From Kribbella turkmenica (GTDB taxonomy: Bacteria > Actinomycetota > Actinomycetes > Propionibacteriales > Kribbellaceae): DNA of 34,876 nt. Every line of letters begins with the position of its first letter. Positions within the stretch are counted from its first letter, which is position 1. Of the stretch, positions 11,953 through 32,122 are shown in pieces. The stretch is from the NCBI RefSeq assembly GCF_004348725.1, contig NZ_SMKR01000070.1:1-34876 (forward strand), written 5' to 3'. The position numbers were made by a program, and so were the translations under genes. Under the pieces are notes generated by a model, which did no database searches, was not told the DNA's origin, and saw only the letters and a program-made list of their open reading frames with translations.

Positions 11953-11962
11953 GGGTGTCGGA

Positions 11963-16348: not shown

Positions 16349-16373
16349 GCGTACAGCGCGGCAATCGGGGTAC
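16349..16373 (+). promoter_or_regulatory. SigB-type promoter candidate for the DUF4383 gene
   Basis: GCGT (16349-16352), 15 bases, GGGTAC (16368-16373), 38 bases before ATG 16411. Nothing else was recognised in 16226-16410. Confidence 0.5.
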
Positions 16374-16410: not shown

Positions 16411-16872
16411 ATGTCCGACGCAACGAGTACGCGGAACACCAGCACTCCGGTCCAGAAGGCGGCGCTCGCGGTGGCCGTCGTCTTCCTGGCCGTCGGTGTC
16501 CTGGGGTTCGTTCCGGGGATCACCACCGACTACGACACGATGAGCTTCGCCGGCCACAACTCCGACGCGATGCTGCTGGGCATCTTCCAGGTCTCGATCC
16601 TGCACAACATCGTCCACCTGCTGTTCGGTGTCCTCGGACTGGCGCTGGCCCGTACCGCGAGCGGGGCGAAGAACTACCTGATCGGCGGCGGTGTGGTGTA
16701 CCTGATCCTGTGGATCTACGGCCTGATCATCGATCAGTCCAGCTCTGCCAACTTCGTACCCGTGAACACCGCCGACAACTGGCTGCACCTGGTCCTGGGT
16801 CTCGGGATGATCTCCCTCGGCGTTCTGCTCACCCGCCGGACCACTCAGGCGTCCGCCACCCCGAACCGGTAG
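16411..16872 (+). CDS. DUF4383 four-helix membrane protein
   Basis: A 153-residue integral membrane protein with four membrane segments (about 15-36, 62-84, 91-109 and 122-142). GVLGFVPGIT, the central HNIVHLLFGVLGLALAR segment and DNWLHLVLGLGM carry histidines of the kind conserved in DUF4383. Function unknown. ATG 16411 has AGGAA five bases upstream and a GGAGGAAATGAGG-rich leader. It is a single gene between a SigB-type promoter and a bidirectional terminator. The family is widespread in actinobacteria and some members are stress-induced, as I recall. Confidence 0.87.
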   Translation: MSDATSTRNTSTPVQKAALAVAVVFLAVGVLGFVPGITTDYDTMSFAGHNSDAMLLGIFQVSILHNIVHLLFGVLGLALARTASGAKNYLIGGGVVYLILWIYGLIIDQSSSANFVPVNTADNWLHLVLGLGMISLGVLLTRRTTQASATPNR

Positions 16873-17435: not shown

Positions 17436-17460
17436 GTGTAGAGCCGGCCGGCTTGGGTAC
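17436..17460 (+). promoter_or_regulatory. SigB-type promoter candidate for the epimerase/decarboxylase
   Basis: GTGT (17436-17439), 15 bases, GGGTAC (17455-17460), 39 bases before GTG 17500. Only four bases separate it from the divergent element at 17407-17431. Confidence 0.6.
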
Positions 17461-17499: not shown

Positions 17500-18468
17500 G
17501 TGCCCGGGAAGCGAGTAGTGGTGACCGGTGGGGCGGGATTCCTCGGCAGCCACCTGTGCGAGCGACTGCTCGCCGACGGCCATCGAGTGATCTGCCTGGA
17601 CAACTTCCTCACCGGTGTGCCTGCCAACGTCGAGCACCTGATGCCGAACCCGGACTTCACCCTGACCCGCTGCGACATCACCGACTTCCTGCACGTCCCC
17701 GGCCCGGTCGACCTCGTGCTCCACTTCGCCAGCCCGGCCTCGCCGATCGATTATCTCCGCCTGCCGATCCAGACCTTGAAGGTCGGTGCCATCGGCACCT
17801 GGCACGCCCTCGGACTCGCGAAGGACAAGGGCGCCCGCTTCCTGCTCGCGAGCACGTCCGAGGTGTACGGCGACCCGCAGGTACACCCGCAACCGGAGGA
17901 GTACTGGGGCCACGTGAACCCGCTCGGCCCGCGCGGTGTGTACGACGAGGCGAAGCGGTACGCCGAGGCACTCACGACCGCGTACCGGACCAGTGAGTCG
18001 CTCGACACCGCGATCGTCCGGATCTTCAACACCTACGGACCGCGGATGCGCCCGGAGGACGGGCGGGCGATCCCGACGTTCATCCGGCAGGCGCTGGCCG
18101 TCAGTCCGCTGACCGTGGCCGGTGACGGCACCCAGACCCGCTCGGTGTGCTACGTCAGCGACACCGTCGACGGCGTCCTGCGGCTCGCCTTCGGCGACCA
18201 CGCCGGGCCGGTCAACATCGGCAACCCGGACGAGCGCTCGGTGCTCACCATCGCGCAGGACGTCATCGCGATCACCCGCACCACCTCGAGCATCGAGTTC
18301 GTCGACCGGCCGGTCGACGACCCCGCCGTACGCCGGCCGGACACCACCCGGGCGCGCAAGCTGCTGGACTGGGAGCCGCAGGTCGAGTGGCACGACGGGC
18401 TCAGGAAGACCGTGGAATGGTTCCGGCACGCTGTGCACGAGCCGCTGTCAGCACCTCCTGGACGCTGA
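17500..18468 (+). CDS. UDP-glucuronate decarboxylase-like NAD-dependent sugar epimerase/dehydratase
   Basis: Extended SDR of 322 residues acting on nucleotide sugars. GGAGFLGSH binds NAD near the N-terminus. [48 protein letters not shown] and [10 protein letters not shown] are the hallmarks of the UDP-xylose synthase branch, with the Tyr/Lys pair in VYDEAKR. The likely reaction is UDP-glucuronate to UDP-xylose, though a related dehydratase or epimerase cannot be excluded. GTG 17500 is preceded by GAGG seven bases upstream. It faces the heptose operon and overlaps its last gene by 68 bases at the 3' end, so it probably supplies a donor sugar for the same glycan. Confidence 0.85.
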
Positions 18469-19333
18469 TCCGGAGCAGCGCCTCGTCGGTCCGGGCGGCG
18501 TGTGGATCACCGGGGCCGGTGCCGTGGTGGACGACCGTGTGCAGGTCGGAGTCGATCGCCGGCCCCCAGAAGGCCGGGGGAGTAGGGCCGAAGAGGGTGA
18601 CCGACCGAGTGCCGGTCGCCGTCGCCAGGTGAGCGATGCCGGTGTCGGTGCTCAGCACCAGGCCCGCCCGAGCAACCAGGCCGGCGAACTCACCGATCGG
18701 AAGGTCGCCGCTGGCGTCGTTCGCGGGTACTTGTCGTGCGATCGCCCGGCAGAGCTCGCGTTCTGTGCCCGTCAGCACGAGGTCCGCGCCGTCCGAACGC
18801 AACTCGCGGGCGACGGCAGTCCATCGGTCGATCGGCCATCTTCGGGCCCCGGCCGCGGCACCTGGATGTAGGACGACCACGTCGTCGCGGACGACGCCGG
18901 GCACGCTGACTCGGAGGTCGTCGGCCGTACAGTGGCCGCCGGCAGCGTTGACCAGGCGGCACCACCGGTCGACCTCGTGCTCGTCGGACCGCCAGCGGGT
19001 CCGGCTGTGATGCGAAGCCGCCGGACAGTCGAAGGCGAGCAGGTCGGTCGGCCGGCTTTCCTGCAGCAACCGGTGGCTGTCCGGTCCGCGGCCGTGCAGG
19101 TTCACCGCGACATGACTGCCGAGCGCGCGGCCGGGCGGCTGCGCCGACAGGCCCGCGACCGGCACGACGTCGTCGACGATCCCCAGCTCGGCCAGCCAGC
19201 CTCCGAGTCCGGCCGGACCGGCCAGCAGCAGCGGCCGGTCCGGAGCCAGCCGGCGCAGACCCCGCAACGCGGGCACGGCGGTCAGCGCGTCGCCGAGGCC
19301 GAGCGCGCGCAGGGCGAGCACGGGTGCGGTCAC
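18401..19333 (-). CDS. Family 9 glycosyltransferase (heptosyltransferase-like)
   Basis: A 310-residue GT9 enzyme. The N-terminal [18 protein letters not shown] is the typical GD-loop start. The donor domain has [16 protein letters not shown] followed by [12 protein letters not shown], and [26 protein letters not shown]9 enzymes such as WaaC and WaaF transfer heptose from ADP-heptose. It is the last gene of the nine-gene operon, with GTG 19333 overlapping the SDR stop by 4 bases. With GmhA, HldE and a GmhB domain upstream, a heptose donor is the natural inference; the acceptor is unknown. Its 3' end overlaps the convergent epimerase gene by 68 bases. Confidence 0.87.
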
Positions 19334-20013
19334 GGCCAGGACGGCTCCACCGACGGGCAGACCACGAGCTCACGGATCTCGGCACCGGCCGGTTGCCCGA
19401 GCGCGTAGACGATCGTGTCGGCGACGACGTCCGGATCGTTCAGCATTGCGTCCTCCCCGGGCCGGTACCGCTCCGGGCGACCGTCGAAGAAGCTGGTCTT
19501 CATACCGCCGGGCACCACCATCGTCACCCCGACCCGCCCGGCGGTCTCGACCGCGAGCGCCCGGGAGAACCCGACCACCCCGAACTTCGAGGCGCAGTAC
19601 GCCGTGGCGTCGCTCAGGGCCCGCAGGCCGAGGGTCGAGGCGATGGTGACCAGTCGGCCACGAGTGCTCTCGAGGCGTGGAACGGCGGCCCGCGCGATCG
19701 CGGCGGTACCGATCAGGTTGACGGTGACCACCCGCACCCAGTCCTCCAGCGGGACGTCCTCGATCCGTCCGCAGGAGTCGATGCCGGCCGCGGTGACGAC
19801 GCCGGTGAGCGGGCCGATCAGCCGTTCCGCCTCCGCGACCGCCGGCTCCGCGGCCGTTGGGTCGGAAAGGTCCACCTCAACCCAACGGACGTCGTCTCCC
19901 GGCGCTCGCCGGTCCAGCGCGACCGCCGTACCGCCGGCCTTCTCCACGGCCCGGACGACAGCGGCGCCGAGGCCACTGGCGCCACCGGTCACGGCGACTC
20001 GTTCCACACTCAT
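19330..20013 (-). CDS. Short-chain dehydrogenase/reductase of the heptose operon
   Basis: Classical SDR of 227 residues. TGGASGLG is the cofactor loop, VTAAGID replaces NNAG, and the catalytic residues lie in TIASTLG and AYCASK. VVPGGMKTSFFDG follows. It is too short and of the wrong subfamily to be HldD, the extended-SDR heptose 6-epimerase. It may modify a sugar or lipid part of the product. ATG 20013 overlaps the HldE stop (ATGA) and has AAGGAG upstream. It is coupled to the terminal GT9 gene by another 4-base overlap. Confidence 0.85.
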   Translation of the reverse strand: MSVERVAVTGGASGLGAAVVRAVEKAGGTAVALDRRAPGDDVRWVEVDLSDPTAAEPAVAEAERLIGPLTGVVTAAGIDSCGRIEDVPLEDWVRVVTVNLIGTAAIARAAVPRLESTRGRLVTIASTLGLRALSDATAYCASKFGVVGFSRALAVETAGRVGVTMVVPGGMKTSFFDGRPERYRPGEDAMLNDPDVVADTIVYALGQPAGAEIRELVVCPSVEPSWP

Positions 20014-21371
20014 CGAAAACTCCTTCCGTCGAGGATCGCGCTGGTCGAGCGGCCGGGCAGCAGCGGGACCACGACCACCCGGCCGCCCCAGCCGCGCACA
20101 ATGGGGGCCTCGGGCAACGAATCGGCGTCGTAGTCGCCGCCCTTGACCCAGACGTCGGGCCGGAGCTGGTCGAGCAGCTCGGCCGGAGTGTCGCCGCCGA
20201 ACACCTCGACGGCGTCGACGCACCGCAGGGACCGGAGCACCCGGCACCGGTCGCCGACCGGGTTCACCGGCCGGCCGGCTCCCTTGAGCCGTTGGACGCC
20301 GGTGTCTGAGTTCACCAGGACCACGAGCGCGTCACCGAGCTGCCGGGCCGCCTCGAGACCGGCGATGTGCCCGGCGTGCAGAACGTCGAAACAGCCACCC
20401 GTCGCGACGACGGTGCCACCGGCGGCGCGGATTCTCCGGATCAGGTCCGCCGCGGTCAACTGCTCGGAGCTGTCGACGACCCGTTCGGAGTACGCGGGAG
20501 CCTGCACGCCACCCGCACGCAACCAGTGAGCGGTGTCGTCGGCGGCGTCGGCGATGGCAGTACGAACCACCGCCCCCGCGCCGAGAGCGGCCGCGACCGT
20601 GCCGGCGAAGCGGTCGCCGGCGCCGCAGGCGTCGCCGTGGTGCTTGAAGGTGGCCGGGACGAAGACGGCCGGGCTGCCGCCGGCGGACAGGAACACACCG
20701 GCCGCGCCGTCGGTCACGGCGACCGCCCAGGCCTGCCACTGGTCGCGCAGCCGCTCGGCGAGTTCGTCGGGCGGTCCCGCCGGCAGCCGGGCGAACTGTC
20801 TGGCTTCGGCTTTGTTCGGGGTGACGAGACACAGCCCCGGCACCGGCTCCGCGCCGCGTGGATGCGGATCCCAGACCATCGCACGCTGGCTCGCCCAGCG
20901 CCGCAGTACCGATCGGACGCCCGGATGGCTGATCAGACCGCCGGCATAGTCGGAGACCAGGACCGCGTCGGAGTCCTCCAGTTCCGCCTCGAGCGCCTCC
21001 AGATCCGGGTCGTCGACGATCGCCGCCTCGGCTTCGACGTCCATCCGCAGGACGGACTGGCCGGCGCTGCGGATCCGGGTCTTGCACCGGGTGCCCGGCG
21101 TACTGGCGATCACGGTGACCGGAAGTCGGTCGGTCAGCAGGGTGGACAGTCGCTTGGACGGTTCGTCGTCGGCCAGCGCGGTGACGAGGTGGACCTCGAT
21201 CCCCGGCCGGCCCGCGAGCAGCGTCGCGGCCAGGCCGGCGCCGCCCGCCCGTTCGGCCTCGGCACCGATCTCGACCACCGGGACCGGCGCCTCCGGCGAC
21301 ACCCGGTGCACCTCGCCGTCGATGTCGCGGTCCAGCAGGACGTCGCCGATCACGAGCACCCGGGTGATCAT
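20010..21371 (-). CDS. hldE: Bifunctional heptose-7-phosphate kinase / heptose-1-phosphate adenylyltransferase
   Basis: A 453-residue fusion matching the HldE (RfaE) layout. Residues 1 to about 305 are a PfkB kinase (VIGDVLLDRDIDGEVHRVSP, EAPVPVVEI, GGAG, and the C-terminal GACGAGDRFAG with its catalytic Asp). Residues about 318-453 are a cytidylyltransferase-fold adenylyltransferase with GCFDVLHAGH (HxGH at 332-335), VNSDTGVQRLKG, GRPVNPVGDR and VKGGDYDAD. The enzyme phosphorylates D-glycero-D-manno-heptose 7-phosphate at C1 and, after GmhB, makes ADP-heptose. E. coli HldE is 477 residues. ATG 21371 overlaps the gmhA stop by 4 bases. The nucleotide could be other than ADP in an actinomycete, but the domain most resembles the ADP type. 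Confidence 0.9.
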   Translation of the reverse strand: MITRVLVIGDVLLDRDIDGEVHRVSPEAPVPVVEIGAEAERAGGAGLAATLLAGRPGIEVHLVTALADDEPSKRLSTLLTDRLPVTVIASTPGTRCKTRIRSAGQSVLRMDVEAEAAIVDDPDLEALEAELEDSDAVLVSDYAGGLISHPGVRSVLRRWASQRAMVWDPHPRGAEPVPGLCLVTPNKAEARQFARLPAGPPDELAERLRDQWQAWAVAVTDGAAGVFLSAGGSPAVFVPATFKHHGDACGAGDRFAGTVAAALGAGAVVRTAIADAADDTAHWLRAGGVQAPAYSERVVDSSEQLTAADLIRRIRAAGGTVVATGGCFDVLHAGHIAGLEAARQLGDALVVLVNSDTGVQRLKGAGRPVNPVGDRCRVLRSLRCVDAVEVFGGDTPAELLDQLRPDVWVKGGDYDADSLPEAPIVRGWGGRVVVVPLLPGRSTSAILDGRSFR

Positions 21372-21961
21372 CGACCGACCTCCGGACCGAGGAGCATCAC
21401 GCGCTCCAGGGCCGCGCAGAGTGCGTGGATGGCGATCAGGTGGGCCTCCTGGACCGCGGTCGGGGCGATGCTCTCGATCGCCAGCACCTCGTCGACCTGC
21501 TCGGCCAGCGGATTCGGCCGCGGACCGGTCATCGCCCAGACGTGCAGCCCGAGCAGGCGTCCGGCGTCGGCAGCGGCCAGCAGGTTCGGGCTCGCGCCGC
21601 TGGTCGACAGCAGGATCAGTACGTCGCCCGGCCGGCCATGGGCCTCGACCTGCCGGGCGAACACCCGCTCCTGGCCGAAGTCGTTGCCGATGGCCGTCAT
21701 CGTCGAGGAGTCCGCGTGCAACGCGATCGCGGGCAGCGCCGTGCGGCCGGACTCGAAGCGACCGACCAGTTCGGCGGTCAGGTGCTGCGCCTCGGCCGCG
21801 CTGCCACCGTTGCCGGCCGCAAGGAGATGGTTCCCGGCGGCGAAGGCGACGGCCAGTTCCCGGCCCCAGCGGTCGAGCACGTCGTTCTGCCTCGCGAGGC
21901 TCTGCAGACCGTCGCCGAGTTGGTCGAGGTGTTCGTTCAGAGTGCCGAAAGCCGCTTTCAT
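21368..21961 (-). CDS. gmhA: Sedoheptulose-7-phosphate isomerase (SIS domain)
   Basis: A 197-residue SIS-domain isomerase, close to the 192 residues of E. coli GmhA. It converts sedoheptulose 7-phosphate to D-glycero-D-manno-heptose 7-phosphate, the entry step of heptose synthesis. GNGGSAAEAQHLTAELVGRF places His60 and Glu64 at the known zinc/catalytic positions, and Gln171 and His179 sit in AVQEAHLIAIHALC. LLSTSGASPNLL is the sugar-phosphate loop. ATG 21961 overlaps the preceding glycosyltransferase stop, and its stop overlaps hldE. The direct neighbourhood of hldE makes the assignment strong. Confidence 0.9.
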   Translation of the reverse strand: MKAAFGTLNEHLDQLGDGLQSLARQNDVLDRWGRELAVAFAAGNHLLAAGNGGSAAEAQHLTAELVGRFESGRTALPAIALHADSSTMTAIGNDFGQERVFARQVEAHGRPGDVLILLSTSGASPNLLAAADAGRLLGLHVWAMTGPRPNPLAEQVDEVLAIESIAPTAVQEAHLIAIHALCAALERVMLLGPEVGR

Positions 21962-23160
21962 CCGATCCTCCCCGAGGTCACCGGAGACACGATCCGGCGG
22001 TAGACGTCCTCCGTCGCCGCGGCCACTGTGGGCCACGTGTACTTCGCAAGCACCCGAGCGTGTCCGGCGCGGCCGAGAGCCTCTCGGCGGGCCGGGTCCG
22101 CCAGCAGTTCCCGCAGTACGACGGCCAGCCGCACCGGATCCCGTGGTGGCACGTGGATCCCGGTGACGCCGTCGACCACGGTGTCCACCAGACCGCCGAC
22201 GGCCGAGGCGACGACCGGCCGTCCGCAGGCCATCGCCTCCAGCGGCACGATCCCGAACGGCTCGTACCACGGTGTGCAGGCGACCACGTCGGCCGACCGC
22301 AGCAACGCGGGTACCTCCGTCCTCCTGACCGGACCGATCAGCGAGACGCGGTCGGCCACGCCGGCCTGCTCGGCGAGGGCTCGCAACCGGACGACCTCCG
22401 GGTCGGCGTCGAAGCCGGTCGACGGACCGCCGGCCACGACGAGTTCGGCGCCGGCGACGTGGGCGAGGGCGGCGATGACTGTGTCCACACCTTTGCGCTC
22501 GACCAGCCTGCCCAGCGAGAGGATCCGGCCGCGGCCGCCGTGCCGGCGCCGCTCGGCCGGTGGGCCGGGTGGGAACGCGTCGACGCCGCACGGGACGACG
22601 TGCATGACCTCGGGCCGCGCGCCCAGCGCCAGAAGCTCGCGCACCTCGTCGGTCGCGGTGGCGATCACGGCGTCGGACCGCAGGGCGAGCGAGGTCTCGA
22701 TGTCCACCCGGTCGTCCGGGCTCGGGTCATGGCTGCCTTGGTGACGGCGCTTGACCACACCGAGGGCATGGAAGGTCTGGGCGCTCGGCAGCGGCATCCG
22801 TCGGCGGGCCTGGACGGACGCGACGCCGGACATCCAGAAGTGCGCGTGGACGACGTCCGGTGGCCGGTCCGCCCAGTAGACCGTCAGCCAGTCGCCGAAC
22901 GCGGGCATATAGGGCTGCAGTTCGTCCTTCGCGATCGGCCGCGGTGGTCCGGCGGGCACGTGGATCACATCGACGCCCGGGCCGAGGCACATCCGTTCCG
23001 GCGTGCCGTGATGGTCGCGCCGGGTGTAGACGTCGACCGTGTGGCCGCGCTCGGCCAGCGCCAGCGACAGTGACGCGACGTGGACGTTCTGGCCGCCGGC
23101 GTCGGCCCCACCCAGGACTGCCAGCGGACTCGCGTGCTCGGAGATCATCGCGATCCTCAT
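21958..23160 (-). CDS. Family 4 glycosyltransferase
   Basis: A 400-residue GT-B retaining glycosyltransferase. The N-terminus has MRIAMISEHASPL and GGADAGGQNVHV, the loop seen in MshA and sucrose-phosphate-synthase-like enzymes. The donor domain carries ILSLGRLVERKGVDTVI, CTPWYEPFGIVPLEAMACG (the EX7E motif) and GTG-type loops. It transfers a sugar from an NDP-sugar to the growing glycan at the inner membrane face. ATG 23160 overlaps the upstream gene stop by 4 bases; longer frames lie inside that gene and were refused. The acceptor is unknown. Confidence 0.88.
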   Translation of the reverse strand: MRIAMISEHASPLAVLGGADAGGQNVHVASLSLALAERGHTVDVYTRRDHHGTPERMCLGPGVDVIHVPAGPPRPIAKDELQPYMPAFGDWLTVYWADRPPDVVHAHFWMSGVASVQARRRMPLPSAQTFHALGVVKRRHQGSHDPSPDDRVDIETSLALRSDAVIATATDEVRELLALGARPEVMHVVPCGVDAFPPGPPAERRRHGGRGRILSLGRLVERKGVDTVIAALAHVAGAELVVAGGPSTGFDADPEVVRLRALAEQAGVADRVSLIGPVRRTEVPALLRSADVVACTPWYEPFGIVPLEAMACGRPVVASAVGGLVDTVVDGVTGIHVPPRDPVRLAVVLRELLADPARREALGRAGHARVLAKYTWPTVAAATEDVYRRIVSPVTSGRIG

Positions 23161-24116
23161 CGGCACACCTCCTTCAGGATCCGGTTCCATTCGTCGAGAA
23201 ATCTGGGCAGCCCGAAGTGGTCGAGGGCGTGCAGCCGGGCGGCGAGGCCGACGTCGCGGGCCTCGGCCCGGTCGGACTGCCAGCGCAGGGCGGTCCGTGC
23301 CAGGACGTCGGGGTCGGAGCTGACGACGCCGGCCTGTGCAGGCACTGACTCGGGCGCCGCGGTCGAGGCGATCACGAGGACCGGACAGCCCAGCGTCATC
23401 GCCTCGACGAGGGACAGCCCGAGGCTCGTCCACCGGCAGCTGTGCAGGTAGGCGAGGTGGTTCGCGGTCCTGGCGTGCAGCTCCTTCTGGGACAGGTCGT
23501 CGGTGGCCGCGAGCCCTGGGCCGAAGCGGCCCGCGAGCTGGTCGGCGCCCATTCCGTAGACCCCGACCGGCACGTACTGCGAGATCCGCTGCACCAGGTC
23601 GAGTCCGGCGACCCGCCAGCGCCGGACCGGTTCGTTGACGGCGACGGCGAGCGAGTCGAGCCGGCCGGTGTACTGATAGCCGTAGTCGGGCACACCGTGC
23701 TCGATCACGACCGTCGGTGCCAGTCCGTTGTCCCAGGCCATCGCGTTGAACTGGGTGACGTGCACGATCGGTATGTCTGCCCGGGCGGCCAGCGGATGGA
23801 TCCATTCGTCGACATCCCCGCGGGGCGTGTTGTGCTCGACGTACACCGCGGGCACCCCGTGCCGGCCGAGCGCGCGACCCGACCAGCGCTGGAACAGTTG
23901 GAGCTCGCTCAGGCGTTGCAGCACGACGACGTCGATGTCCTCGTCGGCCAGCTCGGCCGGCCGGACCTCCCGCACGGCCGACGGCCACTCGTAGGTCAGA
24001 GCACGGCCGCGGCCGTCGGGTCCGCGGTCCGGGAGAACCGGCACCAGGTAGTCGTGGTCACCCTGGACGAACGACGTCATCCAGGACGCGTGCACGTGCC
24101 AGGCCAGGATCTTCAC
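23157..24116 (-). CDS. Glycosyltransferase, GT-B type
   Basis: A 319-residue protein beginning VKILAWHVHASWMTSFVQGD and carrying VVVLQRLSELQLFQRW, VYVEHNTPRGDVDEW, PTVVIEHGVPDYGYQYTG and a C-terminal donor segment SLGLSLVEAMTLGCPVLVIA, with an EX-E-like LVEAM motif. This is a divergent GT-B glycosyltransferase, related to families 1/4. GTG 24116 overlaps the GT9 stop by 4 bases. One of four or five transferases in the operon, so the glycan probably has at least that many linkages. The sugar it transfers is unknown. Confidence 0.8.
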   Translation of the reverse strand: MKILAWHVHASWMTSFVQGDHDYLVPVLPDRGPDGRGRALTYEWPSAVREVRPAELADEDIDVVVLQRLSELQLFQRWSGRALGRHGVPAVYVEHNTPRGDVDEWIHPLAARADIPIVHVTQFNAMAWDNGLAPTVVIEHGVPDYGYQYTGRLDSLAVAVNEPVRRWRVAGLDLVQRISQYVPVGVYGMGADQLAGRFGPGLAATDDLSQKELHARTANHLAYLHSCRWTSLGLSLVEAMTLGCPVLVIASTAAPESVPAQAGVVSSDPDVLARTALRWQSDRAEARDVGLAARLHALDHFGLPRFLDEWNRILKEVCR

Positions 24117-25105
24117 GCGACCTCCTCGAGGAGTTTGTGCACCGCGATCACCGCTTCCTCGATCGCGACACCGTTCAGGCAGGGGTGACCGGGGATCGGG
24201 CACTCGCGCGCGCGGGTGTCACGGCAAGGAGCCTGCTGGTCGCCGAGCAGGATCGCCGGCACCCGCCAGGGCGCCCAGCGGTCGGGCGGCACCACCGGGG
24301 CGAACAGCGAGACGACCGGTGTGCCGACCGCCGCGGCGAGGTGGGCCGGGCCGGTGTTGCCCACGACGGCACAGTCGGCGCCGTCGAGCAGCGCGGCCAG
24401 CTCGGCGTACCGCGTCGTCCCGCCGCGGTCGATACCGTTGTCTCCGGCAACGAACCGGGTGAGCTCGCGTTCCGCCGGTGATCCGGTGACGAGCACGCGA
24501 TGGCCGGCGCCGGTGAGCGCGGTGACGAGAGCACGGAACCAGTCCGGGCTCGCCGTACGGGCGGGGACCGAGGCGCCCGGGTGGACGACGACGTACGCGT
24601 GCTGTGCGGGCGGCCGGACCTGCCGCACGCGCAGGGATCCGTCGTCGCCGGGCGGCAGGTCGTAACCGGCGGCACGGACGAGGTCCAGGTTGCGTTCGAC
24701 CTCGTGCCCCGGCCGCGGCCGGTGCCGCAGATCCAGCAGCGATCCCGGGTAGTCCACGCAGTTGGCCGCGAGGTACTTCAGTCCGGCGAGCCGTAGGACG
24801 AGGGCCAGCGGCAGCGGGCTCTGGTGGTACGACGTCAGGATGAATCCGGCCCCGAACTGTTCGAGCGCGAGCGCGTCGATCAGCGTGTCCACCGAGCGCC
24901 GCTCGACCGGGGGTGGTGAGAACCCGGTCCACGGACAGGGCCAGGTCAGCACGTTGCGGACCCCCGGCAGCAGGCGCGCGGCCTGTTCACCGCTGGGTGC
25001 GACCAGGAGTGTCACCCGGTCCCGCGCCGCGATGGCCCGGACTGCCGGGCCCGCCAGGAGTACGTCGCCGTCGTTGTCCATTCTGGCGACCAGGACGCTC
25101 CTCAT
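24113..25105 (-). CDS. Family 9 glycosyltransferase (heptosyltransferase-like)
   Basis: A 330-residue GT9 enzyme, starting MRSVLVARMDNDGDVLLAGP, the characteristic opening of WaaC/WaaF-type heptosyltransferases. VVVHPGASVPART, VLVTGSPAERELT and VVGNTGPAHLAAAVGTPVVSLF form the donor-binding domain. A late cysteine-containing segment (CRDTRARECPIPGHPCLNG) resembles that of GT9 relatives. ATG 25105 overlaps the GT2-GmhB stop. Two GT9 enzymes in one operon with ADP-heptose genes argue for two heptose additions, or one heptose and one unrelated sugar. Confidence 0.87.
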   Translation of the reverse strand: MRSVLVARMDNDGDVLLAGPAVRAIAARDRVTLLVAPSGEQAARLLPGVRNVLTWPCPWTGFSPPPVERRSVDTLIDALALEQFGAGFILTSYHQSPLPLALVLRLAGLKYLAANCVDYPGSLLDLRHRPRPGHEVERNLDLVRAAGYDLPPGDDGSLRVRQVRPPAQHAYVVVHPGASVPARTASPDWFRALVTALTGAGHRVLVTGSPAERELTRFVAGDNGIDRGGTTRYAELAALLDGADCAVVGNTGPAHLAAAVGTPVVSLFAPVVPPDRWAPWRVPAILLGDQQAPCRDTRARECPIPGHPCLNGVAIEEAVIAVHKLLEEVA

Positions 25106-26556
25106 CGCAGCCCCTTCAGGACCTGGTCCACGGCGGTCCGCAGGTCGGGTGCGGTGACCCGGGCGGCGAGAATCTCCTCCGGCCGGGTCCGGTCGTTGGG
25201 CACCAGGATCGACCGGGCCCCCGCGGCGTCTGCGGCGCCCAGGTCGGCGGCGATGTCGCCGATCACCACGATCTGCCGCGGCGGCACGCCGAGACTGCGG
25301 GCGGCCGAGCGGATCAGTCCGTCGGCGGGCTTGCGGCAGCCGCACCCGTCCTCCACCGTGTGCGGACACACCTGCCAGGTGTCGAACGGACCGACCAGGT
25401 GGTCGATCCGGTCGTTCACCGCGCAGACCTGGTCCGCGGTCGCGAGGCCACGGCCGATCGCCGACTGATTGGTGACGACACCGACCCGCAGACCCGCCGA
25501 GCGAAGCCGCTCGACGGCGGTCGCGGCGTCGTCGACCGGAGTGACCTTCTCCGGATCGCCGTTGTACGGGACGTCGTGCACGAGCGTGCCGTCCCGGTCG
25601 AACAGGACCGCCCGGACCGGCTCCGGCCAAGCCTGGCTGCCGCGGAACCGCCACCATCCGGCGATCCGGTGGCCCACTGCCGCGAACGGAATCAGCCACG
25701 AGGTGGCGGCCATCCGCCCCGTCTCACGGGGAGTTCGTGGACCGGCCGCGATCCGGCGAATCGCGAACTCGGCGTACAGGACGAGCCAGAGGGCCAGCCC
25801 CGGACGGCGGTATCGGCTCAATGCGAGGACGGCCGCGCAGACCGTGGCCACATGGTGGGGGAACCGGCCCGGTGGACACTCGGTGCGCGCACGCCATCGG
25901 CGGCCGTGGAGTGCTCGCATCAGTGCGTCGTCGGCGTTGCCTCGCTGCACGCGGACACTGATCCAGAAGTCGGCCGGGCGCACCGGGTGGACGATGTGCC
26001 GCTCGCCGCGGACCAGTCGCCAGCCGTCGTCGCGAACCCGACGGGCCAGGTCGGCGTCCTCGCGGTACGCGCGCCGGAACCGCTCGTCGAATCCGTCGAC
26101 CGCGTGGAGCGCGAGCGTCCGGTAGGCCATGTCCGCCGTTGCCCAGTGCGCGGTGCGGAGCCCCGCCGTACTGCGCTCCCAGTCGGTCGGCCGTCGCCCC
26201 TGCGGATCAGGGACCCGGATTTTCGCTTGGACACCCGCCACCTCGGGCCCGGCCGCGGCCAGATCGGCCAGCAGCTTCGCCGACCAGCTGTCGGGAAGCC
26301 GTACGTCGTCGTCGAGGAACACCACCCACTCGGTGCCGGCGGTCTTCCAGCCGACGTTGCGGGCGGCCGCCGGACCGCGGCCGCCGCTCGAGCGAACGGT
26401 GATCGGGAGGTCCACCGCAACGGGTGCGAGCGCGTCCGGGCCGTCGTTGACCAGGACCACCTGGTCGGGCCGATGGAGCTGCGCCGCGAGGTCGGCCAGC
26501 AGATCGGTCAGGGAAGAACGTCCCAGCGTGGGAACGACGACGGTCCAACTCGTCAT
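25102..26556 (-). CDS. Fusion of family 2 glycosyltransferase and GmhB-type heptose bisphosphate phosphatase
   Basis: A 484-residue two-domain protein. Residues 1 to about 240 are a GT2 (GT-A) domain: VVVPTLGRSSL, VVLVNDGPD, GGRGPAAARNVGW and the metal motif VVFLDDDV. A hydrophobic, basic linker with one or two membrane-associated segments (about 245-300) follows. Residues about 314-484 are a HAD-IIIA phosphatase: nucleophile Asp320 and Asp322 in LFDRDGTL, VVTNQSAIGRG, and the GmhB zinc site Cys397-His399-Cys405-Cys407. GmhB removes the 7-phosphate from heptose 1,7-bisphosphate, the step between the two HldE reactions. No separate gmhB is in the operon, so this domain is likely to fill the gap. 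ATG 26556 overlaps the carbamoyltransferase stop. Confidence 0.87.
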   Translation of the reverse strand: MTSWTVVVPTLGRSSLTDLLADLAAQLHRPDQVVLVNDGPDALAPVAVDLPITVRSSGGRGPAAARNVGWKTAGTEWVVFLDDDVRLPDSWSAKLLADLAAAGPEVAGVQAKIRVPDPQGRRPTDWERSTAGLRTAHWATADMAYRTLALHAVDGFDERFRRAYREDADLARRVRDDGWRLVRGERHIVHPVRPADFWISVRVQRGNADDALMRALHGRRWRARTECPPGRFPHHVATVCAAVLALSRYRRPGLALWLVLYAEFAIRRIAAGPRTPRETGRMAATSWLIPFAAVGHRIAGWWRFRGSQAWPEPVRAVLFDRDGTLVHDVPYNGDPEKVTPVDDAATAVERLRSAGLRVGVVTNQSAIGRGLATADQVCAVNDRIDHLVGPFDTWQVCPHTVEDGCGCRKPADGLIRSAARSLGVPPRQIVVIGDIAADLGAADAAGARSILVPNDRTRPEEILAARVTAPDLRTAVDQVLKGLR

Positions 26557-28190
26557 CGGAACGACTCCGCGCGGCGGACCACGTGAGGTCCGAGGACGAG
26601 CAGGTCGGCCGGTGTCGAGCCGAACAGTTCGAGGGCGTCCGACGGGCTGTCGACCATCGGCCGGCCGGCGGTGTTCAGGCTGGTGTTGACCAGCACGGGC
26701 AGCCCGGTCCGCCGGTCGAACTCGTGCAGCAACCGGGCGAGCAGAGGTTCGGCCGCCGGGTCGACGGTCTGGATCCGGGCGGTGCCGTCGACGTGCACTA
26801 CGGCGGGGATCCGTTCCCGCCAGGTGGCGACGACGTCGTGGACGAACAACATGTACGGGCTGGGCAGCGGGCCGTCGAAGATCTCGGCCGCCCGGCCGGC
26901 GAGGACCAGCGGCGCGATCGGCCGGAACTGCTCGCGTCCCTTGATGTCGTTCAGCCGCTCGAGATTGCGTGGGTCGCCAGGGTGCGCGAGCAAGGACCGG
27001 TGCCCGAGGGCGCGCGGTCCGTACTCCGACCGGCCCTGGAACCAGGCGACGACCGCGTTGCCGGCCAAGGCCTCGGCGACCGTCGCCGCGAGGTCCCGCG
27101 GTGTCTCGAACGGCAGTCCCGCCCGCGCCAGCCGGGCGCCGAGCTCGTCGTCGGTCCAGCCCCGGCCGAGCGCGGCGGTCGTCATCGGCATCGGCGCACG
27201 GCCGGCGCCGGCGCTCAGGTGGAGCGCCGCGCCCAGCGAGGTTCCGGCGTCACCGGCGGCCGGCTGGACCCAGATCTCGTCGTACGGTCCGCGCCGGGCG
27301 AGCATGGAGTTGGCGACGCAGTTCAGTGCCGTGCCGCCGGCCATCGTCAGGTTCCTGGCGCCGCTGCGGTCGTGCAACCAGCGAGCGAGGTCGAGCAGAA
27401 CCTCCTCGAGTCGCTGCTGCGCGCTGCAGGCGAGGTCGGCGTGCGCGTCGCCGAGTGAGTCGCCTTTGCGGACCTTGGGCGCATACGCCTCCCAGTCCAC
27501 CGGGTCGGTGACGAACCCGCCGTCACCGGTCGCCCGGACGAGTTCGCGGAAGTCATCCAGGTGCCGCGGTTTGCCGTACGACGCCAGCGCCATCACCTTG
27601 TACTCGTCGCTGGAGCGGAGGAAGCCGAGGTGCTCGGTCAGGTCCTCGTAGAGCAGACCGAGTGAATGCGGGAGTTCCTGGGCGGCGAAGACCTCGAGGT
27701 CGGGGCCGGTGTAGCGACCGGCCAGGTGCGACGCGCGCTCGCCTCGGCCGTCGAGCACCAGGCAGGCGCTGTCCCGGAACGGCGCGGCCAGGCCGGCCGA
27801 CGCCGCGTGGGCCACGTGATGCTGAACGAACCGGACCTTGTCCGGGTCGAGACCGGGCAGGGACGCGGCCAGGAACCTGGGCGCCCGGCGGGCGTAGTCC
27901 GTGCGGACCGCGTCGCCGGGGTCGCTGACGCCGAGGCCGGCCAGGTCGACGCACAACGCGGGGTCGAACGAATAGCCGACGAGGTCGAGGTCCTGCGGCC
28001 GGATCCCACCCTGGTCGAGACACCAGCGCATCGCCTGCTCGGGCAACTCCCAGGCCGACCAGGGCACAGGCCGCTTGCCGTGCTTGCGGCGGCTGAACCG
28101 CTCCTCTTCCGCCGCCGCCACGATCCGGCCGTCCACCACGAGCGCGGCCGACGGGTCGTGGAAGATCGCGTTGACTCCGAGCACTCGCAT
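26553..28190 (-). CDS. NodU/CmcH-family O-carbamoyltransferase
   Basis: A 545-residue enzyme, usual length for the family. It transfers a carbamoyl group from carbamoyl phosphate, through an adenylate, to a sugar or antibiotic hydroxyl. Landmarks are VNAIFHDPSAALVVDG, EEERFSRRKHGKR, the metal/nucleotide histidines in HHVAHAASA (124, 125, 128), MAGGTALNCVANS, WFQGRSEYGPRALGHRS and VNTSLN. ATG 28190 follows GGGGAGG ten bases upstream. First gene of the nine-gene operon, with a SigB-type promoter candidate at 28229-28253. It presumably decorates the heptose-containing glycan, as carbamoylation does in some LPS cores and in Nod factors. Confidence 0.9.
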   Translation of the reverse strand: MRVLGVNAIFHDPSAALVVDGRIVAAAEEERFSRRKHGKRPVPWSAWELPEQAMRWCLDQGGIRPQDLDLVGYSFDPALCVDLAGLGVSDPGDAVRTDYARRAPRFLAASLPGLDPDKVRFVQHHVAHAASAGLAAPFRDSACLVLDGRGERASHLAGRYTGPDLEVFAAQELPHSLGLLYEDLTEHLGFLRSSDEYKVMALASYGKPRHLDDFRELVRATGDGGFVTDPVDWEAYAPKVRKGDSLGDAHADLACSAQQRLEEVLLDLARWLHDRSGARNLTMAGGTALNCVANSMLARRGPYDEIWVQPAAGDAGTSLGAALHLSAGAGRAPMPMTTAALGRGWTDDELGARLARAGLPFETPRDLAATVAEALAGNAVVAWFQGRSEYGPRALGHRSLLAHPGDPRNLERLNDIKGREQFRPIAPLVLAGRAAEIFDGPLPSPYMLFVHDVVATWRERIPAVVHVDGTARIQTVDPAAEPLLARLLHEFDRRTGLPVLVNTSLNTAGRPMVDSPSDALELFGSTPADLLVLGPHVVRRAESFR

Positions 28191-28228
28191 CCGGCTCGAA
28201 CCTCCCCTTGGTCGACGAGACGGCGGCA

Positions 28229-28253
28229 GTACCCGGTCGAAGTGCTTGTACAC
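28229..28253 (-). promoter_or_regulatory. SigB-type promoter candidate for the heptose operon
   Basis: Minus strand GTGT (28253-28250), 15 bases, GGGTAC (28234-28229), about 39 bases before ATG 28190. The same GTGT and 15-base spacer precede the epimerase gene at 17500. Confidence 0.6.
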
Positions 28254-28368
28254 GGCCAGTAGCGCTGCTCGTCCGGAATCCGGCGGAAATCGGCAGAACC
28301 GCTGCTATGGGTGTCCGCCTGGGTACTGCGGCCCTGGTACCGGCGAGACGAAAGGCGGTGACGATCGG

Positions 28369-28703: not shown

Positions 28704-29510
28704 TCAGACCGACAGTGCCAGCCGTAGCTGGACCATGATCCGCCCGAGGAGGCGCGACACCTGCATCTGGCTGACGCCGATCTCGTGACCGATCTCGGCC
28801 TGGGTCCGGTGTTCCAGGAACCGTCGCTGGAAGATCAGCCGGTCGCGGGCGGGCAGGTTGTCGACGACCGGCCGGAGCGACTCGATCTGGTCGATGAGCT
28901 GATAGGTGTCCGCCGGATCCGCGACCTGCTGGCCGCGGGTGATCGACGAGCCGTCGTGCAGCGGAGTGTCCAGCGAGGACGGCGTGAAGCACCCCTGTGC
29001 ACGCTGCGCCTCGATGACCTCCTGCACGTCCAGGCCGAGCGCCTCGGCCAGTTCGTGGGAGCTCGGCCAGCGTCCGAGCCGGGCCGCCAGGGCACCTTCG
29101 ACAGCGCTGATCCGGGTCTGGGTCTCCTGCAGGCGTCGAGGCATCTTGACCGCCCAGGCATGGTCGCGGAAGTGGTGGCGGATGCCACCGCGGATGGTGG
29201 GGACGGCGAAGGACCGGAAGTCGGATCCGTCCACCGGCCGGTAGTTGCGGGCCGCTTTGACCAGGTGCTCGTACGCGACCTGGTCGAGGTCCTCGGCGTC
29301 GACGCCACGCCGGTAGTACCGGCTCGCCAGCGTGCGGGCGAGCGGAACCGACACAACAATCGCTTGATCGAGCAGGTCTTCTCGTCGCGGACCGGATGCT
29401 TCCGCGGCCTCGCGGAGCAGCCTCTCCGCGGTCGCCGCCTGCTCGTTGCGCGTCTCCGTGCACTCCACGACGGCCACGGACGGACGGGGCTGCTGAGTGA
29501 TGAACGACAT
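28704..29510 (-). CDS. SigB/SigF-type RNA polymerase sigma factor
   Basis: A 268-residue sigma factor of the stress/sporulation group. Region 2 spans about 50-120 (RYYRRGVDAEDLDQVAYEHL, then NYRPVDGSDFRSFAVPTIRG and GIRHHFRD). Region 3 is at about 125-200 and region 4 at about 215-268 (LPARDRLIFQRRFLEHRTQA followed by GVSQMQVSRLLGRI, the group hallmark). ATG 29510 is used although the ribosome site GCAGGCGG is weak. Its own GCTT-N15-GGGTAC promoter candidate lies 70 bases upstream, which fits autoregulation. Eight such elements in the window suggest its regulon surrounds it. No anti-sigma gene is adjacent, so activity control must lie elsewhere. Confidence 0.92.
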   Translation of the reverse strand: MSFITQQPRPSVAVVECTETRNEQAATAERLLREAAEASGPRREDLLDQAIVVSVPLARTLASRYYRRGVDAEDLDQVAYEHLVKAARNYRPVDGSDFRSFAVPTIRGGIRHHFRDHAWAVKMPRRLQETQTRISAVEGALAARLGRWPSSHELAEALGLDVQEVIEAQRAQGCFTPSSLDTPLHDGSSITRGQQVADPADTYQLIDQIESLRPVVDNLPARDRLIFQRRFLEHRTQAEIGHEIGVSQMQVSRLLGRIMVQLRLALSV

Positions 29511-29579: not shown

Positions 29580-29604
29580 GTACCCAGGCCTATCCGGCTG
29601 AAGC
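29580..29604 (-). promoter_or_regulatory. SigB-type promoter candidate for the sigma factor gene
   Basis: Minus strand GCTT (29604-29601), 15 bases, GGGTAC (29585-29580). This suggests positive autoregulation with a leader of roughly 60 bases. Confidence 0.55.
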
Positions 29605-29903: not shown

Positions 29904-30036
29904 GTCGGCGCGGCCCGGCACAACGGCCGGCGCCTGTCCCGGCCGGATCGCAACCTTCCGCGCTCCGGCCGCATCGTGACGAGTGAGGGGAATCGCGGCC
30001 GGGGGACCGCGGCGATGCGGAGGGGAGGACACAGTC

Positions 30037-31989
30037 ATGCGATTCACGAGGACGGCAGGGGTGGCCGTCGCCATCGCCCTACTGCTGGCGGGGGCGCAAG
30101 CGGCAGAGGGAGAGACACGGTCGCCGGGCGCCCCGCCGGGCATCCAGATCGTGCCTGGGCCGGAGGGCCCCGGCGAAGCACAGTTCGTGCCCGGCGCGAG
30201 CAACGTCGTACCCGCGACCGCGCCGCCGGCCACCGACATCGGCACGAGCAAGGTGCAGTCGCTGGCGGCCCCGTTCTACGCGTGCCCGGGATTCAGCGGG
30301 ATCGATCGGACGAACCCGCTGGCGAACCTGTACCGCGACACCTACGCCTGGGGACCGTACGCACCCGTCAAGGTCGGCAACGGCGGCGGGAACATCAACT
30401 GGCTGGCGAACCCGTACAAGAACGCGAGCTGGTACATGTGGTTCCACTCCCTGCGCTGGCTCGGCCAGGGCATCATCGCGGGCGGCAAGGGTGATCTGGC
30501 CGCGATGACACGGGTGAACACGATCGCCTGGGACTGGTACCGCGACAACCCGTACTCGTGGAAGGGCAACGTCGGCGCCTGGGAGTCGACCATGCACCGC
30601 GCGAACGTGCTGATCTGTCTGCGGCAGGCGATCCTGTCCGGCCTGCAGGTAACGACGGTGCCGGCGCGCTACGCCTGGATCGACACGGCGCTGCTGAGTC
30701 ACGCACGCTTCCTGACGTACAACTGGAGCGGCGCCTGGAACCACGGCACCGACGAGAGCATCGCGTTGTTCGGCCTCGGCTGCACGCTGAACCGGACGGA
30801 CTACAAGAATTTGGCGGTGCAGCGGTTCGGGGCCGCGATCACGACCTCGATCGACGCACAGGGCTCGACCAACGAACAGTCGACCGGGTACGCGGCGTTC
30901 AACTACTCGCTCTGGGGCCGGGCCGTCGCGGTGATGCAGAACTGTGGCGTCTCTCCCGGTACGACGATCCCAGCCCGGCGGGCGTTGCTGGCCAAGTGGC
31001 TGACGCTGGCGACGAACTCGCTCGGCAAACTCCATCAGCTCGGCGACACCGAGCTCCAGGCGACCTACCCATGGCCGGGCACGCCGATGGAGTACGCCGG
31101 TTCGCTCGGGACGAAGGGTACGGTGCCGCCGTGGCGGGTCGGCGTCTACGCGGCGGGCCACGTCTTCGGCCGCACCGGCTGGGGGACCGACCCGGCGCGG
31201 AGGTTCGCGGGGGAGTCGACGTACAGCATCAGGTTCGGGCCGGCGCGAGCGTTCCACGGACACAGCGACCACACCAGCATCACCTACACCTCGCGCGGCC
31301 GGGACATCGTGATCGACGGCGGGTACGCGGCGTACTCGGCGGGTGTGTGGCGGAGCTGGACTCTGAGCCCGTCGGCGCACAGCGTGCTGACGACACCGCT
31401 GTCGAAGGACACCAACCCGGTGACCCGGCTGGCGGCGTACGCCGTGAAGGCGAACGCGGAGGCGTACCAGTTCACCGACGTGCCGGGCAGCGGGATCAGC
31501 CGGATCCGCTCGGTCCTGGTGCTGAAGGACCCGGACCTGATCGTCACCTGGGACCGGGCGTCGTCGAGGACCGCGCAGTTGTACCGGACGCTGTGGCACC
31601 TCCCGCCGGACCAGCGGGCGACCGTGTACTCGCGGACGACCGCGGTGGCGATGGCGCCCGGTGACTCGACCAAGACGATCGTGTTCCAGGTCCCGTTCAA
31701 GCAGGCGCTGCCTGCCGGCGCGACGCTGGTCCACCAGGCTCGGACGAACCCGATCCAGGGCTGGTACTACCCGAGCAGCTACGTCCGGAAGTCGGCGCCG
31801 ACGGTCCTGATGGCCCGGTCCGGCACGATGGCGTCGATCCTGTCGTTCGTCGTCCCCGTGCGGGCCACGGGCTCGGTCACCTACCGCGTCCGGCAGTCGG
31901 GACCGACGTTCATCGTCAGCCTGAACGTCGGTGGCAAGCCCGCGACGATCGCCATCTCCGCCGGCGGGTCGCTGTACCGGGCCGGGTAG
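30037..31989 (+). CDS. Secreted heparinase II/III-like polysaccharide lyase
   Basis: A 650-residue exported protein. The signal peptide (about 1-24, MRFTRTAGVAVAIALLLAGA) is followed by a Pro-rich linker. An alpha/alpha-toroid domain (about 90-370) contains NHGTDESIALFGLG and NEQSTGYAAFNYSLWGRA, which should hold the catalytic Asn and Tyr. The C-terminal beta-sandwich has FGPARAFHGHSDHTSITY and VIDGGYAAY, the heparinase II/III signature with its active-site histidine. It likely cleaves an acidic polysaccharide by elimination; alginate- or heparin-like substrates are known for the family. ATG 30037 follows GGGGAGGA seven bases upstream. A secreted glycosidase gene follows on the same strand. 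Confidence 0.87.
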   Translation: MRFTRTAGVAVAIALLLAGAQAAEGETRSPGAPPGIQIVPGPEGPGEAQFVPGASNVVPATAPPATDIGTSKVQSLAAPFYACPGFSGIDRTNPLANLYRDTYAWGPYAPVKVGNGGGNINWLANPYKNASWYMWFHSLRWLGQGIIAGGKGDLAAMTRVNTIAWDWYRDNPYSWKGNVGAWESTMHRANVLICLRQAILSGLQVTTVPARYAWIDTALLSHARFLTYNWSGAWNHGTDESIALFGLGCTLNRTDYKNLAVQRFGAAITTSIDAQGSTNEQSTGYAAFNYSLWGRAVAVMQNCGVSPGTTIPARRALLAKWLTLATNSLGKLHQLGDTELQATYPWPGTPMEYAGSLGTKGTVPPWRVGVYAAGHVFGRTGWGTDPARRFAGESTYSIRFGPARAFHGHSDHTSITYTSRGRDIVIDGGYAAYSAGVWRSWTLSPSAHSVLTTPLSKDTNPVTRLAAYAVKANAEAYQFTDVPGSGISRIRSVLVLKDPDLIVTWDRASSRTAQLYRTLWHLPPDQRATVYSRTTAVAMAPGDSTKTIVFQVPFKQALPAGATLVHQARTNPIQGWYYPSSYVRKSAPTVLMARSGTMASILSFVVPVRATGSVTYRVRQSGPTFIVSLNVGGKPATIAISAGGSLYRAG

Positions 31990-32045: not shown

Positions 32046-32078
32046 TCCGGGTTCTCGGATTCTTGTCGAGGACCCGGA
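32046..32078 (+). promoter_or_regulatory. Hairpin in the presumed 5' leader of the GH27 gene
   Basis: A 12-bp stem (32046-32057 with 32067-32078, one G-T wobble) and a nine-base loop, just after the promoter candidate and 45 bases before ATG 32123. It may stabilise or attenuate the leader, or be the terminator of the upstream lyase gene. Confidence 0.5.
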
Positions 32079-32122
32079 CGGCCGGGGCCTCGGCTGACAG
32101 ATCGTCAGAGAGGTCACCGCTC

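Follow-up and report, generated by a model that had tools for sequence, protein, structure and literature searches.

The question raised by the locus described here is what an actinomycete makes with genes for ADP (adenosine diphosphate)-heptose biosynthesis that lie within an operon for glycan assembly. The locus is contained in a stretch of 34,876 nucleotides from Kribbella turkmenica (contig NZ_SMKR01000070.1, positions 1 to 34,876; referred to here as the window), in which nine genes on the minus strand span positions 18401-28190 and all translate without internal stops. The answer that we favour, and hold to be fairly probable on the basis of the sequences, is that this operon specifies a stress-induced, O-carbamoylated glycan which contains heptose and probably xylose, is assembled in the cytosol, and is most likely lipid-linked and displayed at the cell envelope. 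Gene content, conserved gene order and promoter conservation were computed in this work; every enzymatic step, as well as the structure, location and induction of the glycan, is inferred. An earlier note on this DNA had proposed a carbamoylated heptose-containing glycan of the surface or of storage; the presence of the pathway, of five glycosyltransferases and of an O-carbamoyltransferase in one operon supports the first part of this proposal, whereas sequence does not distinguish a surface from a storage role.

The families of the nine proteins were called by Pfam and NCBIfam profile searches. Gene 1 (26553-28190) encodes an O-carbamoyltransferase of the NodU/TobZ/GdmN family (PF16861, PF02543), by position the counterpart of cwgB of Streptomyces; gene 2 (25102-26556) a family 2 glycosyltransferase (GT2; PF00535) fused to a GmhB-type phosphatase of the haloacid dehalogenase (HAD) type (HAD-IIIA, PRK08942); gene 3 (24113-25105) a GT9 heptosyltransferase-type enzyme (GT9a; PF01075); gene 4 (23157-24116) a GT4-like glycosyltransferase of GT-B fold with a weak Pfam match; and gene 5 (21958-23160) a GT4 glycosyltransferase (PF00534/PF13439), which is MshA-like but below the MshA cut-off (TIGR03449, 241 bits versus 462.5). 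These are followed by gene 6 (21368-21961) for GmhA, a sedoheptulose-7-phosphate isomerase (SIS_2) and cwgH counterpart; gene 7 (20010-21371) for HldE, a heptose-7-phosphate kinase and heptose-1-phosphate nucleotidyltransferase and cwgI counterpart; gene 8 (19330-20013) for a classical short-chain dehydrogenase/reductase (SDR; PF00106); and gene 9 (18401-19333) for another GT9 heptosyltransferase-type enzyme (GT9b; PF01075), the cwgJ counterpart by position. A 4-base overlap is present at 8/8 junctions, reading on the coding strand ATGA at six of them (26553, 25102, 23157, 21958, 21368 and 20010) and GTGA at the other two (24113 and 19330), and most of the junctions have a purine-rich sequence resembling GGAG shortly before them, within the preceding gene. 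The nine-gene operon, its coordinates, its overlaps and its enzyme families had been set out in the earlier note, and they were borne out by translation, by reading of the junctions and by the Pfam and NCBIfam searches. The longest open reading frame (ORF) of gene 1 is 26553-28253 on the minus strand; its true start is very probably the ATG at 28190, since the N-terminus is conserved and the promoter described below falls inside the longer frame. A simple filter on codon-position G+C content selects genes 1, 2, 4 and 7; the remaining five, which it does not select, have clear family matches. Scans of the window for tRNA and Rfam families gave no matches.

The loci compared comprised a first set of 33 and the best 80 of 536 from a capped scan, i.e. 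114 with the window, all of which were chosen because they bear HldE. The genes for HAD, GT9a, the GT-B/GT4 pair, GmhA and HldE are consecutive in 100 of these 114 loci (window included), and the exact order of the window, SDR included, is seen in 25 of them; because both the exact order and the HAD-to-HldE core recur in this manner, the arrangement is not due to chance. In 56/114 loci the genes for the carbamoyltransferase, GT2, HAD, both GT9s, GT-B, GT4, GmhA and HldE are all co-directional, and the GT2-HAD fusion is found in 51 of 63 loci, the 12 split cases being nine Streptomyces loci and three loci of one genus. Across Actinomycetota the set has a patchy distribution. Within the family (represented by one genus in the collection) full-length HldE is present in 8/38 genomes, the same eight carrying GT9a and a close carbamoyltransferase, and a ninth genome of the genus has a carbamoyltransferase of 38% identity. 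Among 396 genomes drawn from the phylum, HldE (E<=1e-40) is found in 43 and GT9a (E<=1e-30) in 40, with 37 shared against 4.3 expected. At least part of the set is carried, among others, by Nocardia, Amycolatopsis, Prauserella, Cellulomonas, Actinomadura, Micromonospora, Arthrobacter, Geodermatophilus and metagenome-assembled genomes of Acidimicrobiales. In many loci of the Micrococcales type without carbamoyltransferase and GT2 (L098, L102, L107 and other Arthrobacter-type loci), the operon is followed by a second, more distant HldE copy.

The nearest named relative of this gene set is the cwg ('cell wall glycan') operon of Streptomyces coelicolor (SCO6179-SCO6190), for which the original work is reportedly that of Hong et al. 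2002. Our comparison was made against Streptomyces loci and a published table, and not against the SCO sequences themselves. The order decarboxylase-carbamoyltransferase-GT2-HAD-GT9a-GT-B-GT4-GmhA-HldE-GT9b occurs in 8 loci, six of which are from Streptomyces (e.g. L131 from S. violaceoruber, whose first gene is of the decarboxylase type), and nine of these ten Streptomyces-type modules are co-directional and in the same order in the window. In the 2018 table, cwgH (SCO6186) is a putative phosphoheptose isomerase and cwgI (SCO6187) a putative bifunctional synthase/transferase (PMC5839063), and genes of these two kinds stand here at the positions expected from it. Further, the Streptomyces-type locus L083 carries the published sigma-E promoter of cwg, matched at 27/29 bases and located 149 bases before the first gene (the published distance being 147). 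Since the gene order matches both the Streptomyces loci and the published table, and L083 carries the cwg promoter, the operon is, as read from its gene order, a variant form of the cwg set of actinobacteria. In contrast to cwg, GT2 and HAD are fused here, whereas by position cwgC and cwgD are separate genes in Streptomyces; an additional SDR gene stands ahead of the final GT9; the decarboxylase gene converges on the operon instead of heading it; two further cwg genes are without match; and the promoter is of the SigB/F type, in place of the sigma-E type reported for cwg (PMC6767563). A sigma-E-like AAC-N14-18-CGTC site is not found within 600 bp upstream of gene 1, and the best match to the sigma-E cwg promoter anywhere in the window has 9/29 mismatches. 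The exact promoter was also not found in the 80 loci retained as the best of 536; its best upstream mismatch counts are 2 in L083, 5 in L176, 7 in L087 and 8 in L141, and the sole match in L131, with 9 mismatches, is not upstream of its operon. In the sources available, the product of cwg is only predicted (PMC6767563, PMC5839063), and no heptose product for it was given by the literature searched, from which subscription journals are mostly absent. The earlier note had held that similar clusters may exist in other actinobacteria and could name no product for them; cwg, the Streptomyces version, does not appear in it.

With regard to the sugar that is made, the isomerase, kinase, phosphatase and nucleotidyltransferase of ADP-heptose biosynthesis are all present with their catalytic motifs. 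GmhA would convert sedoheptulose 7-phosphate to D,D-heptose 7-phosphate; phosphoheptose isomerase structures match it at E 1e-37, its QH...E and QE.HL...H stretches are kept, and it scores 154 bits with TIGR00441 (cut-off 209). The kinase domain of HldE would then form the 1,7-bisphosphate. HldE scores 276 bits versus 521 with PRK11316 and 174 versus 181.5 with TIGR02199, its structure matches are 4e84 (heptose-7-phosphate kinase) and 5x9q (a putative cytidylyltransferase), and the motifs GAGDRF, FDxLHAGH, KGGDY and LLPGRSTS are present. The HAD half of gene 2, for which the closest structure is the D,D-heptose 1,7-bisphosphate phosphatase 4pnh, would take off the 7-phosphate; across 108 loci its first motif is DRDGT in 88, and CxH...CxCRKP is found in 108/108. 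Didomain and tridomain nucleoside diphosphate (NDP)-heptose synthetases of actinobacteria are reportedly the subject of Tang et al. 2022. HldE of the window has two domains, as do the didomain synthetases, and at the STTR5 position it reads LLPGRSTS in comparison to (F/L)xxGRSTT, i.e. the Arg is present and the last T is replaced by S; the Arg is found in 27/33 relatives. The tridomain synthetases are resembled by L092, which has GmhA and HldE in one 756-codon open frame, with no other operon module nearby. According to the available text of commentaries on Tang et al. 2024, the Arg in (F/L)xxGRSTT is tied to the use of ATP, CTP and UTP (PMC11461863); unlike the present analysis, that text deals with the enzymes and with immune sensing, and the glycan operon with its gene order and promoter does not feature in it. 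In L071, L079, L081, L082 and L086, which share one gene order, the Arg is replaced by Tyr and the HAD motif is DRDDT, and these loci possibly represent a substrate variant. A tandem pair of cytidylyltransferase-like genes is present elsewhere in the genome of K. turkmenica (L034; G000, contig C183:3401-5116), and like pairs occur in many members of the genus, including those that lack the operon; this pair, which matches the C-terminal domain of HldE only, was set aside.

The same NDP-heptose steps, together with GT9 transferases, constitute the pathway for the inner core of Gram-negative lipopolysaccharide (LPS), viz. GmhA-HldE-GmhB-HldD with WaaC/WaaF. However, unlike in that pathway, the GmhB domain is fused here to GT2, and HldD is not found above cut-off: of 13 matches to this 6-epimerase in the assembly of 351 contigs from the same genome none exceeds the TIGR02197 cut-off, the best scoring 98 of 274.6 bits. 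LPS core as the product was rejected for this reason, and D,D-heptose is therefore the expected unit, which would be used directly, without 6-epimerization. A hint of heptose at the actinomycete surface comes, by analogy, from Rhodococcus ruber, in which deletion of a heptose-1-phosphate guanosyltransferase gene is reported to lead to loss of the capsule, the sugar in that case being GDP (guanosine diphosphate)-linked and made by a different pathway (PMC12298843).

The heptose would be transferred by both GT9 enzymes, in which a (D/N)T...H motif and, close to the N-terminus, a Gly-Asp pair are kept. For GT9a, a profile of 22 orthologues matches WaaC at E 6e-16 and WaaF at E 4e-13, and the invariant residues are G13-D14 and N250-T-x-P-A-H255; for GT9b, the structure matches are 3tov, WaaF and WaaC, and the invariant residues G14-D15 and D230-T-G-x-x-H235. 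The GT2, GT4 and GT-B enzymes may attach other sugars, of which one is probably xylose, supplied by way of the neighbouring decarboxylase. Gene 4, as modelled by AlphaFold (pLDDT 91.6), matches GT4 enzymes in Foldseek (e.g. 7qsg, E 3.6e-12, TM 0.75). The carbamoyltransferase, which matches the TobZ, GdmN and novobiocin carbamoyltransferase structures at E 1e-80 to 1e-90, would decorate the glycan with carbamoyl groups. The SDR has generic SDR structure matches only, and it is absent from the 8 loci of Streptomyces-type order.

Carbamoyltransferases such as TobZ and GdmN act in antibiotic pathways, and NDP-heptose enzymes are reported from septacidin and hygromycin B biosynthesis (PMC11461863, PMC10948575), which raises the alternative that the operon is part of a secondary-metabolite cluster for a heptose natural product, i.e. 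a nucleoside or aminoglycoside of the septacidin, hygromycin or spicamycin kind. The patchy distribution (8/38 in the genus) and a gene for an EryCIII/UGT-like glycosyltransferase at 5645-7045 of the window could be taken in its favour. However, as the earlier note had stated for peptide and polyketide genes, no scaffold-building synthase family is present among the window proteins that were scanned (part of the ORFs), the gene order is conserved across many families, and the promoters are of the stress-sigma type. On these grounds the natural-product cluster was rejected, and we regard it as very unlikely. Even slighter is the chance that the operon serves protein glycosylation, with the GT9s heptosylating proteins in the way that the BAHT family does for autotransporters. 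ADP-heptose is indeed reported to be used through aah in E. coli (PMC11461863); however, no acceptor protein was recognised (no dedicated search was made for one), and five transferases with a carbamoyltransferase suggest a longer glycan.

A further sugar of the glycan is suggested by a tenth gene (17500-18468, plus strand), which is convergent with the operon. By Pfam and NCBIfam this protein is a generic epimerase/dehydratase, and its first label, dTDP-glucose dehydratase-like, was overturned by the match to human UXS1 structures (E 1e-101, 344 bits, in comparison to 142 bits for the next family). The counterpart in S. violaceoruber (L131) likewise scores 304 bits with UXS1 versus 135 with the next family, and TSEVYG-type and YxxxKR motifs are present in 52/52 of the sequences examined. 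The gene is thus predicted to encode a UDP (uridine diphosphate)-glucuronate decarboxylase (UDP-xylose synthase), the counterpart of the first gene in Streptomyces-type operons, and, with this match found both in the window and in Streptomyces, xylose is a predicted component of the glycan. Genes for UDP-glucose dehydrogenase are found near 20/113 operon loci versus 0/40 control regions (the latter taken from 20 of the same genomes) and near 0/7 of the genus relatives; matches to this family, at most 40% identical, occur elsewhere in the genome of K. turkmenica.

When such a glycan would be made is suggested by the sequences upstream of gene 1, which in the eight loci of the genus are diverged except for one island, AGCGCTACT-N2-4-GTGTA-N14/15-GGGTAC. 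This island is aligned in 8/8 loci, with its GTGT 55-65 bases before the start, and its core across the genus is GTGT-N15/16-GGGTAC; in the window it has the form AGCGCTACT-N4-GTGTA-N14-GGGTAC and lies at 28229-28266 on the minus strand. The pattern GCGCTACT-N2-5-GTGTA-N12-16-GGGTA has a single match in the whole genome, at the operon. The island resembles promoters of the SigB/SigF family, which are described as having a GTTT or GNNT -35 and a GGGTA-like -10, and its shape agrees with that of promoters for the SigB homologue of S. coelicolor (PMC8346170). Outside the genus, in loci that were not involved in the discovery of the motif, GTKT-N14-16-GGGTA is present in the 200 bp upstream of 9/54 carbamoyltransferase genes, of which eight have GTTT-N15 exactly; the background is 0.0046 per 200-bp stretch (p 4e-12, a value which, as with the other p-values, overstates independence, many of the loci being related). 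In a scan of spacings from 8 to 24 over 61 loci including the genus, N15 accounts for 14 cases, 8, 14 and 16 for one each and the others for none; for the same 61 loci the reversed sequence gave 0 and the opposite strand 1, and permuted motifs gave a mean of 0.07 and a maximum of 2 versus the 9 observed. The site precedes 35/189 first genes of units in comparison to 8/785 internal genes, all eight of the latter being carbamoyltransferase genes behind another gene. Among first genes, it is found for the carbamoyltransferase in 9/38, the decarboxylase in 15/43, GT-B in 5/12 and others in 6/96, where the six matches (of the 35) precede an HldE copy, GT9b or SDR and some may be due to chance. The five GT-B cases are loci where GT-B and GT4 form a separate unit, with a promoter site of its own, and no such promoter is seen within 250 bp of the aligned start of the HAD genes (0/107). 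Upstream of the decarboxylase gene, exact GTTT-N15-GGGTA is present in 6/7 genus relatives, and the window has the GTGT form, GTGT-N15-GGGTA(C), at 17436-17459 on the plus strand. In the whole genome, GTTT-N14-16-GGGTA is counted 16 times versus 7 for the reversed control, and single sites therefore mean little without conservation. Two more GTTT/GNNT-N15-GGGTA sites are present on the plus strand of the window, one at 13362-13385, shortly before an SDR gene that starts at about 13399, and the other at 16349-16372, shortly before a DUF4383 gene (16411-16872), and a Holin-X gene (15213-15638) sits between them.

A candidate for the factor that reads these promoters is encoded directly upstream of the operon and in the same direction. 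This gene (28704-29510, minus strand, the start at 29510 being read from the sequence) encodes a SigB/SigF/SigG-type sigma factor with sigma-70 regions 2, 3 and 4, and a factor of this family would drive both the operon and the decarboxylase gene. The sigma gene itself is preceded by a GCTT-N15-GGGTA(C) site (29581-29604, minus strand), and GNNT-N15/16-GGGTA is also found upstream of it in 5/5 genus relatives which have the sigma gene in the stretch examined; this site possibly reflects autoregulation. Relatives of the sigma gene are present near 31/113 operon loci versus 0/40 control regions. Neither this sigma factor nor the promoter nor the convergent gene for the predicted decarboxylase had been mentioned in the earlier account. 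In the form of its -35 and -10 elements, and in the adjacent family sigma gene with a site of its own, the locus resembles the SigB/SigF stress regulons of actinomycetes, whereas cwg-type genes are not listed as members of those regulons in the available text (PMC8346170). In Frankia under salt, a gene annotated as ADP-heptose:LPS heptosyltransferase and a sigma factor with a SigF domain are reported to be up (PMC5563000), and in S. coelicolor salt is reported to activate cwgA and its neighbour (PMC13011467). The glycan would thus probably be an envelope component that is deployed in osmotic, stationary-phase or wall stress.

A number of observations weigh against the interpretation given above. 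With respect to heptose, GmhA, HldE and the HAD domain all score under the NCBIfam equivalog cut-offs, and the heptose biochemistry therefore stays an inference; DRDDT replaces DRDGT in 20/108 loci, with both aspartates kept, and the STTR5-position Arg of HldE is absent in 6/33 relatives. The scores and the DRDDT variant would be in keeping with enzymes that act on other sugars, in which case no heptose is made. However, four pathway activities occur within one operon, heptose enzymes are the best structure matches of GmhA, the HldE kinase domain and HAD, the nucleotidyltransferase motifs are kept in most loci, and two GT9s stand alongside; this alternative appears to us highly improbable. With respect to regulation, the sigma factor scores 206.8 bits with TIGR02980, below the family cut-off of 234.35; the site is missing before the decarboxylase gene of L064; it was not found ahead of the gene that opens the operon in the Streptomyces, Micromonospora and Arthrobacter-type loci; and three Micrococcales loci have it only before the second HldE copy or a separate GT9b. 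With respect to location, the literature searched gave no actinomycete wall polymer for which the presence of heptose is structurally proven, a crude hydropathy scan found a clear membrane segment in none of the nine proteins, and the Pfam scan of 10 of the 15 recurrent neighbour clusters recognised neither an exporter or flippase nor a polymerase or priming transferase. The last two results would be in keeping with a soluble product, viz. an intracellular oligosaccharide or glycoside (e.g. with the role of a compatible solute or of redox or storage) that cytosolic transferases would build on a small acceptor and that osmotic stress would induce. The SigB/F-type promoter would suit such a compound, as would the likeness of gene 5 to MshA and of gene 4, whose best fold match by Foldseek is a mycobacterial methylmannose polysaccharide mannosyltransferase. 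However, cwg of Streptomyces is reported to be induced by vancomycin, partly via the envelope-stress factor sigma-E (PMC6767563); five transferases are more than one would expect for a small solute; and some relatives of the operon have in their vicinity genes that we take as usual for exported acidic glycans, viz. those for UDP-glucose dehydrogenase and for a polysaccharide pyruvyltransferase family (14/113 loci versus 0/40 controls, e.g. L128:5747-6634). We consider the soluble product unlikely, while giving it serious weight, and a location at the envelope is favoured by the control of the Streptomyces operon through envelope stress, by the transferase count and by the acid-sugar genes near some relatives. 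The envelope glycan would be built in the cytosol, its carrier most likely being a lipid, and genes elsewhere would encode its export machinery.

The surroundings of the operon were also compared between the 113 loci and the 40 control regions. Stress-type neighbours include Holin-X (9 versus 0), DUF4383 (3 versus 1), GSP39-type SDR (26 versus 6), SRPBCC (9 versus 0), topoisomerase IB (13 versus 0, p 0.02) and ligase (2 versus 1), and any of seven such markers, the sigma gene included, is found in 54/113 versus 7/40 (p 7e-4); as the markers had been picked from these same loci, the sigma gene alone is claimed as a neighbour. Another GT2 family (e.g. L121:14074-14985) is near 38/113 loci versus 0/40 controls, and an aldehyde dehydrogenase family (e.g. 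L089:102-1466) near 49/113 versus 4/40. The clustering of neighbour ORFs is noisy, and the largest cluster (89 loci), which is outside the ten scanned with Pfam, was taken for shadow ORFs. Elsewhere in the window are genes for an ECF (extracytoplasmic function) sigma factor of SigJ/TIGR02957 type (10468-11241, minus strand) with a PknB-like Ser/Thr kinase gene beside it (11936-13342, plus strand), and, near the sigma gene and on the plus strand, for a heparinase II/III-like protein (29983-31989) and an alpha-galactosidase that bears CBM_X2 and CE2-type domains (32063-34582). At 64-1846 (minus strand) an IndA-like gene overlaps a PfkB kinase gene, a pair which we take to be probably one for pseudouridine catabolism.

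With regard to the wider significance of these results, the cwg-type set in many Actinomycetota may specify a common, stress-deployed Gram-positive envelope glycan, O-carbamoylated and containing D-glycero-D-manno-heptose and xylose, which a number of families would have placed under SigB/F-type factors and Streptomyces under sigma-E; this generalisation is a tentative one, to which we give rather less than even confidence. If it is true, a heptose-containing envelope glycan outside the Gram-negatives would belong to a class of polymers, wall-bound or lipid-linked, that is new. The predicted xylose and the SigB/F-type regulatory link appear to be new, neither having been found in the literature searched, and the comparison narrows the search for the cwg product to heptose, xylose and carbamoyl groups, to the carrier organisms listed above and, in Kribbella, to stress of the SigB/F type. 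The heptose, if confirmed, would be a Gram-positive use of a precursor that is regarded as Gram-negative, and which vertebrates are reported to sense through ALPK1 (PMC11461863). Further, a swap of sigma factors over a nearly constant set of genes would represent a clean case of regulatory rewiring.

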